Made by a program: the position numbers and the translations under genes
Source of the DNA: Treponema sp. UBA3813
GTDB taxonomy: Bacteria; Spirochaetota; Spirochaetia; Treponematales; Treponemataceae
Direction: 5' to 3'
NCBI GenBank assembly: GCA_002368605.1
Contig: DFEB01000029.1
Span: forward strand, 1 to 50,907
DNA: 50,907 nt
Notes under the pieces: model-generated
Database searches by the model: none
The model's input: the letters and a program-made list of their open reading frames with translations, nothing else
What the model was told of the DNA's origin: nothing
Shown: piece after piece, positions 17,991 through 50,907 of the stretch
How the letters are laid out: the number at the start of each line of letters is the position of its first letter
How positions within the stretch are numbered: the stretch's first letter is position 1

Positions 17991-18147
17991 AACTCAGAGA
18001 AAATTTACCCACTGTGTCAAATTTTCTTTTAAATCTGTGTCAAATTTACCCAGTAATCTCTATTTGGAATAAAAATTACGGCCACATTGTCTCTTTTTTT
18101 AATTGATAATTCACAATTCTTAATTCATGATTTTCATATACTAATCT

Positions 18148-47717: not shown

Positions 47718-49339
47718 TTGCATTTATCGATAACAAAGACAGTTTTACATTCAATATCGTTCAGAGTTTGGAGCGGGTTTCTGGCAGCAAGGTTTGCGTT
47801 TTCCGCTCGGAGGAAGCCAGCATAGCTGACATTGAGGCGGCAAAGCCCAGTCACATCGTGGTGGGGCCGGGGCCAGGAACTCCAGCCGAAGCAGGCATTT
47901 CTATAGAAGCAATCCGCCATTTTGCCGGAAAAGTACCCATTCTTGGTATCTGTTTGGGCCACCAGGCGATAGGGGCTGCTTTCGGGGCAAAAATCGTGGG
48001 TGCAAAATACATCCGCCACGGAATCGTCGAGGAAATCAAGACTGACGGCCGGGGAATTTTCCGCACAATCGGACTTAAAGGCTCTTTCACCCGCTATCAT
48101 TCCCTCGTGGTTGACGAAAGCTCTTTGCCTGAAGAATTTGAAGTCTCTGCCAGGGCAAAAGACGGAGATGTCATGGGAATCCGCCACAAAAAGCTTGTGA
48201 TTGAGGGCGTTCAGTTTCATCCAGAATCAATCGCCTCAGAAAAAGGTGACGCTCTTTTCAAGGCCTTCCTCAACTACAGCCGCGAGAACATTTCCCATGT
48301 TTTGATTTTGAATCAGCTCATTGACAAAAAAGAGCCTCTTTCCAGGGAGCAGACGGCAAGTTTCATCGGAGAACTGACTGACGGCACAATGGACGAAAAA
48401 ATCGCCTCGTCTGTGCTCACGGCTATGGCAAGCCGGGGACTTCCCACCGCAGAAGAAATGGGAGGGGCGGCTGAGGTCATGCTCAAAAAGAAGACAAAAT
48501 TCCCGCTGGAAAACCACGGACTGGCCGAAATCGTGGGAACTGGCGGCGACGGAAAGGGCAGCTTCAATATTTCTTCGATGTCGGCTCTCGTGGCTTCAAG
48601 CTGCGGTCAGGTAATGGCAAAGCACGGAAACAGGGCTGTCTCCTCAAAATCTGGAGCCGCGGATTTCTTCGAGGCTCTGGGAATCAACATCATGGCAAAG
48701 CCTGAAAAGACGGCCGAGCTTATCAAAAAAACAGGTTTCGGTTTTTTAATGGCTCCGGTCTATCACTCGGCAATGCGTTTTGCGGCTCCCATCCGAAAGG
48801 CCCTTGGAATCAAGACGATTTTCAACGTGCTCGGTCCCCTTTTGAATCCTGCCAACGCTGAGTACGAAGTTCTGGGAGTTTATTCAAAGGAACTTCTCAA
48901 AGATTACGCCCATGCCGCAAAATCTCTGGGAGCGAAGAGGGTCATGGTGGTCAATTCTGAGGACGGCTACGATGAGATTTCCCCATGTGCCCTCACGAAT
49001 GTCTATCAGATTGACGAAAAGGGAAATGAAAATCAGTATGTGATTGACCCGAAAAACTTCGGAATCACCGACGCTGACGAAAACGAACTTTACGGCGGAA
49101 ACGGAAGCGATAACGCCAAGCTGGCCATGGAAGTCCTGAACGGAGCTGGCCGTAAGACAATCCGCTATGCCGTGGGTCTGAACGCCGGGGCAGTGCTTTA
49201 TCTTTGCGGAAAGACTCGAACCTTAAAAGACGGCTACAACATGGCTCTTGAGGCAATCGATTCAGGAAAGACACTGGCAAAGCTCAAGGAGATACAAACT
49301 GTGAGCGAGCAACTGAATGCGCAAGAGGAAGTTGCATAA
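47714..49339 (+). CDS. trpGD: Anthranilate synthase glutaminase fused to anthranilate phosphoribosyltransferase
   Basis: This 541-residue fusion has a class I glutamine amidotransferase domain (1-190; VVGPGPGTP, nucleophile Cys in GICLGHQAIG, His-Glu in VQFHPES) that feeds ammonia to TrpE. The second part (about 200-530) is anthranilate phosphoribosyltransferase, with IVGTGGDGKGSFNISS for PRPP, KHGNRAVSSKSGAAD, FNVLGPLLNPA and the metal site DGYDEIS. Fusions of this order are known from enterobacteria. No trpC, trpF, trpB or trpA follows; a hairpin and the integron integrase come next. The remaining steps must be encoded elsewhere. Confidence 0.95.
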   Translation: MIAFIDNKDSFTFNIVQSLERVSGSKVCVFRSEEASIADIEAAKPSHIVVGPGPGTPAEAGISIEAIRHFAGKVPILGICLGHQAIGAAFGAKIVGAKYIRHGIVEEIKTDGRGIFRTIGLKGSFTRYHSLVVDESSLPEEFEVSARAKDGDVMGIRHKKLVIEGVQFHPESIASEKGDALFKAFLNYSRENISHVLILNQLIDKKEPLSREQTASFIGELTDGTMDEKIASSVLTAMASRGLPTAEEMGGAAEVMLKKKTKFPLENHGLAEIVGTGGDGKGSFNISSMSALVASSCGQVMAKHGNRAVSSKSGAADFFEALGINIMAKPEKTAELIKKTGFGFLMAPVYHSAMRFAAPIRKALGIKTIFNVLGPLLNPANAEYEVLGVYSKELLKDYAHAAKSLGAKRVMVVNSEDGYDEISPCALTNVYQIDEKGNENQYVIDPKNFGITDADENELYGGNGSDNAKLAMEVLNGAGRKTIRYAVGLNAGAVLYLCGKTRTLKDGYNMALEAIDSGKTLAKLKEIQTVSEQLNAQEEVA

Positions 49340-49345
49340 AAGCAA

Positions 49346-49379
49346 CGAACCGAAAATCCACGGAATGATTTTCGGTTCG
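49346..49379 (+). terminator. 13-bp hairpin after trpGD, probable terminator
   Basis: CGAACCGAAAATC (49346-49358) and GATTTTCGGTTCG (49367-49379) pair perfectly around an 8-nt loop. A small GTTGC/GCAAC hairpin spans the trpGD stop just before it. The stem is followed by AAAAATT rather than a T-run, so it may be Rho-assisted or an mRNA 3'-end structure. Confidence 0.6.
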
Positions 49380-49384
49380 AAAAA

Positions 49385-49414
49385 TTGCCGCTTTCCATAG
49401 AAAATCGTTATATT
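49385..49414 (+). promoter_or_regulatory. Promoter of the integron integrase gene
   Basis: TTGCCG (49385-49390), 18-nt spacer, TATATT (49409-49414), then 6 nt (TTAGAT) and the ATG at 49421. No ribosome binding site and no recognisable LexA box are present. Confidence 0.6.
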
Positions 49415-49420
49415 TTAGAT

Positions 49421-50686
49421 ATGACAATTAATATATGCTCTCGCGAAGCAAACACAATCAGCATTCGATTTGACGGCGGTTTTACCCAGGATATGCTCAA
49501 TGCAGTTCGCTCTGTTCCAGACAGGGCATATAATCCTCTGTGTAAAATCTGGTTGATTCCAAATAATCAGAAGTCACTTGATACTTTTCTTGAAAACATT
49601 TATCGAACTGGTGACTTTAATATAGAAGGAACAATAGCAAAAGAACAGGTTTTTCCTCAAAAAAATCCTCTTGAAAAAAAAGCTCCCGAAAGAAAAAATG
49701 AGCTCAGACTTTCAAATCGGGAGTCTGATTCACAGGAACTTCAAAAACTCAAGGAAATCCTGGTCACAAAACATTACAGCCAGCGGACAATTGAAAACTA
49801 TCTTTACTGGGCAAAAAATTTTTTACGAAGCCAGAAAAACCAATCCTTAAATGAAGAAGAACAAATAAACAGTTTTCTGACAGGTCTTGCAGTAAAACAA
49901 AATTTAAGCGCCCCGACACAAAATCAGGCACTGGCCGCCCTGCTCTTTTTCTTCCGTTTTGTGCGGAACCAGGACCCGGAAAATTTCAAAAATATAATTC
50001 ACGCAAAAAACAAACGACACATTCCCTGCGTCCTGAGCAAAGAAGAAGTCCGCGCAGTGATTTCCCGCCTTGAAGGAAGTAAACGCCTCGCCGCCGAAAT
50101 TTTATACGGAACAGGAATGAGACTTAATGAACTCCTTGGACTTCGAATTCTCGACATTGATTTTGACAGAAACGAAATTATCATCCGATGCGGGAAAGGC
50201 GGAAAAGACAGACGAGTTATGCTTCCAAAAAGCCTAATCCAAAAAATAAAAGAGCACATCGTCGATGTAAAACTTCTCCACGAAAAAGACCTTGCCGAAG
50301 GCTGGGGAAAAGTGCTCCTTCCGCCAAGCATTTCAAAACGCTCACCTGAGTCAGCAAAAGAATTCCGCTGGCAGTGGCTCTTTCCCCAAAAGAACCGCTG
50401 GAAAAACGAAAAGACCGGAGAAGAAGGCCGCCATCATATCGATGAAAGCATTCTGCAGAAAGCCGTAAAAAAAGCAGTTCAGGATGCAGGAATCACAAAA
50501 AATGCCAGCTGCCACACCTTCCGCCATTCATTTGCGACCCACCTTTTGGAAAACGGCTACGACATACGCACAGTCCAGGAGCTTTTAGGCCACAGTGATG
50601 TAAGGACAACGATGATTTACACACATGTGTTGAGCAAAGGCGCCAGGGAAGTGATAAGCCCTTTGGATGGGATTATGGGAGACTGA
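49421..50686 (+). CDS. intI: Integron integrase (tyrosine recombinase, IntI type)
   Basis: This 421-residue tyrosine recombinase has the catalytic set Arg234 (GTGMRLNELLGLR), Lys262 region (GKGGKDRR), His365 and Arg368 (HTFRHSFATHLL), His391 (LLGHSDVRTT) and Tyr400 (IYTHVL). The IntI-specific insertion that separates integron integrases from XerC/D is present at about 290-345 (DLAEGWGKVLLPP, EFRWQWLFP, RHHIDES). An extra 100-residue N-terminal part with NPLCKIWLIP precedes the core-binding domain (about 105-190). The start at 49421 is chosen because a promoter ends 6 nt upstream. In Treponema integrons intI points the same way as the cassettes, so attI would lie just downstream. Confidence 0.92.
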   Translation: MTINICSREANTISIRFDGGFTQDMLNAVRSVPDRAYNPLCKIWLIPNNQKSLDTFLENIYRTGDFNIEGTIAKEQVFPQKNPLEKKAPERKNELRLSNRESDSQELQKLKEILVTKHYSQRTIENYLYWAKNFLRSQKNQSLNEEEQINSFLTGLAVKQNLSAPTQNQALAALLFFFRFVRNQDPENFKNIIHAKNKRHIPCVLSKEEVRAVISRLEGSKRLAAEILYGTGMRLNELLGLRILDIDFDRNEIIIRCGKGGKDRRVMLPKSLIQKIKEHIVDVKLLHEKDLAEGWGKVLLPPSISKRSPESAKEFRWQWLFPQKNRWKNEKTGEEGRHHIDESILQKAVKKAVQDAGITKNASCHTFRHSFATHLLENGYDIRTVQELLGHSDVRTTMIYTHVLSKGAREVISPLDGIMGD

Positions 50687-50774
50687 AAATGAGGCGCAGA
50701 ATAGGAAAAAATGTAGGGAAAGGGGAAGGGGGCTTGAGGTGAAAGGGGCATTAAATGGTTTCCGTTTAAATTCT
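50687..50774 (+). other. Non-coding stretch after intI, candidate attI region
   Basis: This purine-rich stretch after the intI stop has no gene. It contains ATTAAATGG at 50750-50758, a motif repeated as ATTAAACGG at 50833-50841 and ATTAAATGG at 50863-50871. It resembles the integron core GTTRRRY except for the first base. In the reversed layout of treponemal integrons attI lies here; the assignment is inference. Confidence 0.35.
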
Positions 50775-50803
50775 TTGAAAATTGAGGAATTTTGTGATAT
50801 TAT
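50775..50803 (+). promoter_or_regulatory. Promoter upstream of the open frame at the window end
   Basis: TTGAAA (50775-50780), a 17-nt spacer and TATTAT (50798-50803). An ATG follows at 50816. Confidence 0.6.
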
Positions 50804-50815
50804 GAAGAAATACCG

Positions 50816-50907
50816 ATGATTCCACTTCGCACATTAAACGGCGATTTTGCAGTGCGGGTGGAATTAAATGGATACGGAGAAAAATTGTTATGTGGACGCC
50901 CGCACTG
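50816..50907 (+). CDS. Possible 5' end of a gene or cassette ORF (partial)
   Basis: From the ATG at 50816 the frame is open for 30 codons to the window end, beginning MIPLRTLNGDFAVRVELN. A good promoter ends 12 nt upstream, but no ribosome binding site is present. I do not recognise the sequence. The same stretch also carries an inverted repeat (50850-50907) that could be part of an attC site, in which case the frame might be accidental. Both readings are possible. Confidence 0.4.
   Translation, partial: MIPLRTLNGDFAVRVELNGYGEKLLCGRPH
50850..50907. repeat. Inverted repeat cut by the window end, possible attC-type structure
   Basis: CAGTGCGGGTG (50850-50860) pairs with CGCCCGCACTG (50897-50907) at all 11 positions, one of them a G-T wobble, around a 36-nt centre. 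The right arm ends on the last base, so the palindrome may continue beyond the window, possibly to the ATTAAACGG motif at 50833. Confidence 0.5.

Follow-up and report, generated by a model that had tools for sequence, protein, structure and literature searches.

The usual description of an integron cassette is a gene with an attC site. The Vibrio superintegron, whose attC sites are the VCRs, shares with the integrons of Treponema the IntI family, the GTT crossover and structured attC sites; unlike in Treponema, however, most of its array genes run opposite to intI, and its IntI, at about 320 aa, has no room for an extra domain. Within attC, the extrahelical bases of the bottom strand matter for IntI (PMC3053210, available portion). 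Treponema integrons are already published as inverted (PMC3607928, available portion): in T. denticola, T. succinifaciens and T. brennaborense, intI points towards attI, attI lies 3′ of intI, and the arrays are co-directional, all of which the locus described here has in common with them, together with the IntI clade. In the available portion of that account attC is described up to the R′ box, and neither a hairpin at the cassette start nor an extra N-terminal domain is named. The accessible open literature more broadly (PMC4909258, PMC6557892 and PMC7691350 included, supplements aside) yielded no description of a conserved cassette-start hairpin, and none, with the same scope for supplements, of a HARP-like domain on an integrase. 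We hypothesize, at roughly even confidence and from sequence alone, that the hairpin at the start of cassettes in the inverted Treponema integron (the "leader") may be the outer arm of the recombination site, with a HARP-like domain of the integrase as its candidate reader.

The window analyzed here (50,907 nt) is the entire contig C10 of a draft Treponema genome of 2.60 Mb in 83 contigs. Frames upstream of intI read as TrpE and TrpG-TrpD, names taken from reading of the translations, and the features of interest are the following:

49421 to 50686, + strand: intI, the integron integrase gene, 421 aa plus stop (TIGR02249, alignment with 2a3v, tree)
49421 to 49621, + strand: HARP-like N-terminal domain, approximately aa 1–67 (Pfam HARP 13.1 bits, E 0.073, cut-off 25)
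50775 to 50803, + strand: probable cassette promoter Pc (TTGAAA, 17 nt, TATTAT, TG before the −10; 10 of 12 consensus matches)
50820 to 50863, + strand: imperfect inverted repeat of the attI region (arms 50820–50832 and 50852–50863), read from the sequence
50887 to 50892, + strand: GTTATG, the attI crossover (R-type) site; the order intI, GTTATG, leader is the same in relatives
50893 to 50907, + strand: start of the first cassette, 5′ half of the leader hairpin only (alignment A4); the contig ends here

By its profile matches, the frame at 49421–50686 encodes an integron integrase, as the earlier note had read it (the listed open reading frame opens slightly upstream, at TTG 49385). TIGR02249 scores 416.4 bits against it, far above the cut-off of 265 and over model positions 2–314 of 315, whereas the XerC and XerD models reach about 163 bits each against cut-offs of 335 and 330. 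The alignment with the best solved relative (the Vibrio integrase 2a3v) runs through the stretch that the note had pointed out as the IntI-specific insertion, and R234, K259, H365, R368, H391 and Y400, which we take to be the catalytic residues, are invariant in all 10 aligned sequences, the window's among them. A tree of 47 rows also took in the IntI of two out of three further regions that were retrieved, two from class 1 integrons and one from a Kovacikia plasmid. In this tree the window IntI falls inside the Treponema clade (support 100/99, with a bootstrap that is not fully settled), and two Xer proteins from its own genome fall outside it on long branches.

Across the family, an IntI match at E ≤ 1e-60 occurs in 88 of 274 genomes (this genome, G000, counted), and the region 3′ of intI was retrieved for 80 of the other 87, with 40 further downstream stretches in some. 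Relatives with longer contigs carry arrays directly 3′ of intI and in the same direction. The matches include one (G245) that lies inside the intI coordinates published for T. succinifaciens and another (G247) that fits T. brennaborense (PMC3607928, available portion). With GTTATG and a leader start 3′ of intI in the window and co-directional arrays in relatives, the locus can be identified as an inverted chromosomal integron of a gut Treponema, seen at its integrase end; the layout is known and the locus itself is ordinary for Treponema. Elsewhere among the relatives, three TD-2 RNAs (RF03162) stand in tandem upstream of intI (L144 11–408), and an intI copy at L060 9974–10351 has lost an internal segment, so that a portion of its N-terminal domain runs directly into the C-terminal part; near this copy, cassette-like starts carry a different hairpin, with the loop TATGC.

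Between intI and attI, the Pc candidate is the best of seven promoter-like sites in 49330–50907 on both strands (2.2 expected), and some relatives also have promoter-like sequences in this interval. Inverted repeats of the attI region scored at least 9 in 7/47 related loci versus 4/141 shuffles, a moderate excess in a test that was run outside the window. At L056 11233–11600, tandem repeats around GGCGGATG lie between intI and attI. The leader at the window's edge reads as two free bases (NN), G 50895, a bulged A 50896, a stem at 50897–50901, a bulged G 50902, C 50903, the loop ACT and a closing G 50907. The closest relative found (L050, IntI 84% identical) runs 320 nt past the matching sequence and shows the same order after intI, followed by a cassette, so we place the array start within the window. 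Thus the inverted integron that had been proposed from this DNA is upheld, and the array start, expected at or just after the window's end, in fact lies inside it, at GTTATG 50887–50892, although only 21 nt before the edge. Those 21 nt (50887–50907) are identical to positions 18014–18034 of contig C63 of the same genome, and contig C10 was probably broken in assembly within a repeated cassette start. As the window is the whole of C10, the array cannot be followed onward from it. Of the 80 retrieved loci, 22 stop no more than 500 nt past intI, and the leader, as a repeat, may be what causes such breaks. A count of first leaders (59/80 loci) contained visible false positives and was set aside. 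Two IMG/VR "viral" contigs (L285 and L286), which may be bacterial, carry a Treponema-type attI and a first cassette.

The search for attC with a covariance model, which the earlier note had advised, used a model derived from alignment A4 that covers both attC and leader. It gave at least five matches at E ≤ 1 in this genome (150 of 556 first-look candidates scored; weakest E 0.018), two on C62 near the contig end, two on C63 and one on C75; these contigs stand apart from C10 in the assembly, where just 21 nt of junction are joined to intI, and in relatives, as noted, the arrays follow intI directly. Neither of the outcomes that the note had set as refuting, a lack of attC sites downstream or a tree position among XerC/D, came up. 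The cassettes at the end of C62 include a HigB/HigA-like pair and a PIN/antitoxin-like one; beyond them lie a degenerate attC and, on the opposite strand, a citrate-synthase-like gene (all names from reading), so that this is perhaps the far end of the array.

Several further elements were seen on these contigs and in related loci. The leader GTTATGTGGACGCCCGCTACTTGAGGCGC occurs with no attC seen before it on C63 (L033 17215–17240), directly after an rRNA-methyltransferase-like gene (name from reading), and on C6 (L034 1060–1090, minus strand), where it borders a truncated open frame; both copies may stem from insertion at secondary sites or from joins made in assembly. A recurrent stem-less attC, CATAACAAAG directly joined to GTTATG, is found at L033 18004–18017 and, at about 7022 and 1565 after the intI stop, in L111 and L121, respectively, as if a deletion between short GTT repeats had removed the hairpin. 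A DUF3800-VI RNA (RF02915, 57.5 bits) lies at L033 19101–19151, upstream of the last gene in the C63 cassette cluster. Finally, a hairpin with the core CAGCAAGTCAAGCTTGCTG and A/T runs on its flanks, the center of which resembles an attC loop, recurs within cassettes (L054 12442–12492 and 15064–15114; the C62 end, L280).

The leader hairpin recurs across the family's arrays in a fixed form and at a fixed place. Because attC sites were called on arm complementarity alone, the calling was blind to the sequence that follows. At a score of at least 23, the intI regions (537,851 b) hold 193 sites versus 5 in one shuffle; with the extension loci there are 373 sites, 364 of them away from locus ends, with 302 unique first 40 nt from 51 loci. 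GTTRRN is followed by two free bases, a single base pair, an unpaired A, then a stem of 3–8 pairs and a loop usually of 3–6 nt. A perfect 4-bp stem exactly at offset 4 after GTTRRN is present in 209/302 unique leaders (69.2%), compared with 3.6% of shuffled leaders, 11.3% on the mirror side of attC and 1.3–4.3% at leader offsets 0–3. The full motif (with a stem of at least 3 pairs) is present in 235/302, compared with 2.7% in shuffles, 8.3% on the mirror side and 1.7, 1.7 and 0.7% at slides of −2, −1 and +1. The bulged base is A in 231/235 full-motif leaders; likewise, the base before the 4-bp stem is A in 206/209 and is unpaired with the base after the stem in 207/209, and the pair beyond the bulge holds in 202/209 (157 expected), as G-C in 176, C-G in 23 and T-A in 3.

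This form is shared widely: the hairpin is kept across 47 different stem sequences, it occurs in several genera of the family, and, by groups assigned by hand, the full motif is present in 65/77 leaders of the gut group, 7/7 of the brennaborense-like group, 44/50 of genus g13 and 119/168 of the remainder (denticola-like). Clustering by cassette leaves it in 188/248 first members. The 67/302 leaders that lack the full motif include some that look like false attC calls and others with imperfect or missing hairpins, so the hairpin is not strictly required. On the reverse strand, 193/3974 GTTA positions (4.9%; 72 with a bulged A) show the motif, as do 323/4697 forward GTTA positions without an attC call (6.9%; 198 with a bulged A), the latter count probably including missed attC and attI sites. 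The large T. saccharophilum plasmids pTS1 and pTS2 (L287 and L288), which stood outside the motif definition, carry integron cassettes, some with leader hairpins: of five sites, three have the typical hairpin and one a partial hairpin with a bulged A, while the fifth, which lies within a gene, is apparently a miscalled attC. UUCG tetraloops were rejected, as the loops are mostly triloops or others, and an intrinsic terminator was not adopted, the T-run being inconsistent (by reading, uncounted). The leader marks cassette starts precisely.

The pairs of the leader stem covary. Alignment A4 consists of the window plus 42 of 80 sites already having the stem, so the 99.7% of cells paired over its seven pairs (27–51% when slid) is not independent evidence. 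Its double-change cells number 65 versus 23.9 in shuffles, with 0/500 shuffles as high, and the covariation score is 0.557 versus 0.189. Two of the five measures are not above shuffles, namely double-change pairs (5 versus 4.1) and further pair types (8 versus 7.4).

Outside Treponema, a Vibrio array (Vibrio sp. HDW18, NZ_CP049914.1) has the stem at offset 4 in 2/30 leaders and at offset 3 in 4/30, or at offset 4 in 2/17 with the other site finder, and the full motif in 1/30, with T rather than A as the bulge. The idea that such a leader also ends the Vibrio VCR was rejected: in this array the string in question falls within the long attC, and what follows the true R′ box varies. Site calls were made in three of 21 Verrucomicrobiota/Riflebacteria loci, none resembling a cassette array, and with no usable array these loci say nothing on the leader.

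The second element that sets these integrons apart is the N-terminal domain of IntI, which looks HARP-like. In the window IntI a variable linker then extends to about aa 104; the earlier note had mentioned neither this extra N-terminal stretch of about 100 aa nor the leader. Its profile (A3) was built from 49 N-terminal rows, i.e., the window plus 48 of 67 automatically cut stretches, the other 19 having been dropped by eye, mostly for a wrong cut place and in a few cases as short or near-identical. The profile matches 68/69 Treponema-family IntI frames of at least 380 aa (L161 is the exception), including 21/22 of those left out of its building, and the domain core is GR.W....K.W.IP. Pfam HARP matches 21/49 of the homologous N-termini at E ≤ 1, and one member, L150, is above the Pfam cut-off of 25 (31.1 bits, E 1.7e-7), the window's 13.1 bits being below it; the top match in a PDB profile search is the SWI/SNF-type HARP domain 4o66 (E 0.049). 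The likeness to HARP of SMARCAL1 (PF07443; 4o66) is a weak to moderate match by sequence; the domain sits there on a helicase and here on a tyrosine recombinase. Among 32 IntI-type frames of other phyla, one of them probably a chance frame, from 31 loci of G275 (Riflebacteria) and the phylum of G274 (titled Lentisphaerae, which we take to be Verrucomicrobiota), the profile had no match at E ≤ 10. As nearly all full-length Treponema-family IntI have the domain and the other IntI examined are without it, the domain is a candidate binder of the leader, a link that draws on one clade and one Vibrio array. Leader and extra integrase domain together make this locus a variant worth testing.

These elements can be assembled into a conceptual model. 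The intI gene faces attI, the cassettes are probably driven from a promoter between the two, and the GTT at 50887 is where they are inserted. Most cassettes bring two structured elements to the junction, attC at the 3′ end and a short hairpin at the 5′ end, such that, once joined, attC and leader hairpin stand side by side across the crossover. At the DNA level the leader may then form the outer arm of the recombination site: folded on the bottom strand, which IntI is expected to use, it would lie next to the attC hairpin and present an extrahelical T to IntI, and the HARP-like N-terminal domain would be the natural candidate for binding it. The N-terminal domain of lambda Int, which binds arm sites, offers an analogy for such recognition. 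More tentatively, the model may be carried to a two-hairpin site in which attC and a 5′ element with an extrahelical base are recognized by a lineage-added, HARP-like, DNA-structure-binding domain of IntI.

The strongest alternative, in our judgment unlikely, is that the leader works as RNA: as a 5′ hairpin of every cassette transcript, it would prevent the upstream attC stem-loop from covering the ribosome-binding site, stabilize a processed end or serve as the binding site of a regulator. Hairpin and start codon do lie close together when there is a gene start nearby (median 17 nt), with a Shine-Dalgarno-like sequence in 78/120 such cases. Yet the stem turns up equally often whether or not a gene starts within 75 nt (120/171 with, 89/131 without; p 0.71), and G-T wobbles (G-U pairs in RNA) number only 4 among 219 stems, at up to one mismatch allowed per stem; both observations speak against a mainly translational role. 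At 4 G-T to 2 A-C, mismatches are too few for assigning a strand. RNA folding energies are favorable on both strands, which suits an RNA element, although no Rfam family reaches gathering score over the leader in the eight loci scanned. For the 235 hairpins, DNA parameters favor the top strand in 176 and RNA parameters the bottom strand in 170, and as the parameter sets disagree, folding energies do not settle the strand. The loops are strand-asymmetric, T-N-C in 78/120 triloops and T-NN-C in 34/54 tetraloops, and top-strand G-N-A or G-NN-A loops number 0 (1 in a looser set); many leader loops thus read G-N-A and G-NN-A on the bottom strand. Such loops are very stable in DNA or RNA. The RNA reading also draws on the finding that attC stem-loops in mRNA hinder ribosomes (PMC8876359, available portion).

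Less probable again is that the leader is a by-product, i.e., that attC with a downstream palindrome spreads and the stems, now functionless, are kept by replication-based palindrome correction. Such correction would yield the nearly perfect stem pairing observed, and an identical hairpin does recur in several cassettes of one genome; however, the fixed offset, the A bulge in 231/235 and the extra pair beyond the bulge would be hard to keep without selection, and they are kept across 47 stem sequences and several genera of the family. It is very improbable that the window encodes a plain recombinase of the XerC/XerD type, or an integrase that stands alone with no array: XerC and XerD models do match the protein, more weakly, and partial or stop-interrupted intI copies alone remain in some family genomes, but the TIGR02249 score and the tree place it with IntI, and there are attC-like sites on C62 and C63 and a junction and leader at the window's end.

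If the outer-arm reading holds, such that cassettes of this lineage carry a second structured signal and the integrase a matching domain, both the way cassettes are defined and the software that finds them would need a lineage-specific part, and these integrons would provide a test system for how an integrase gains recognition of a new structure. Should the two-hairpin site be real, recognition of structure rather than sequence would in this family have been extended from one hairpin to two.
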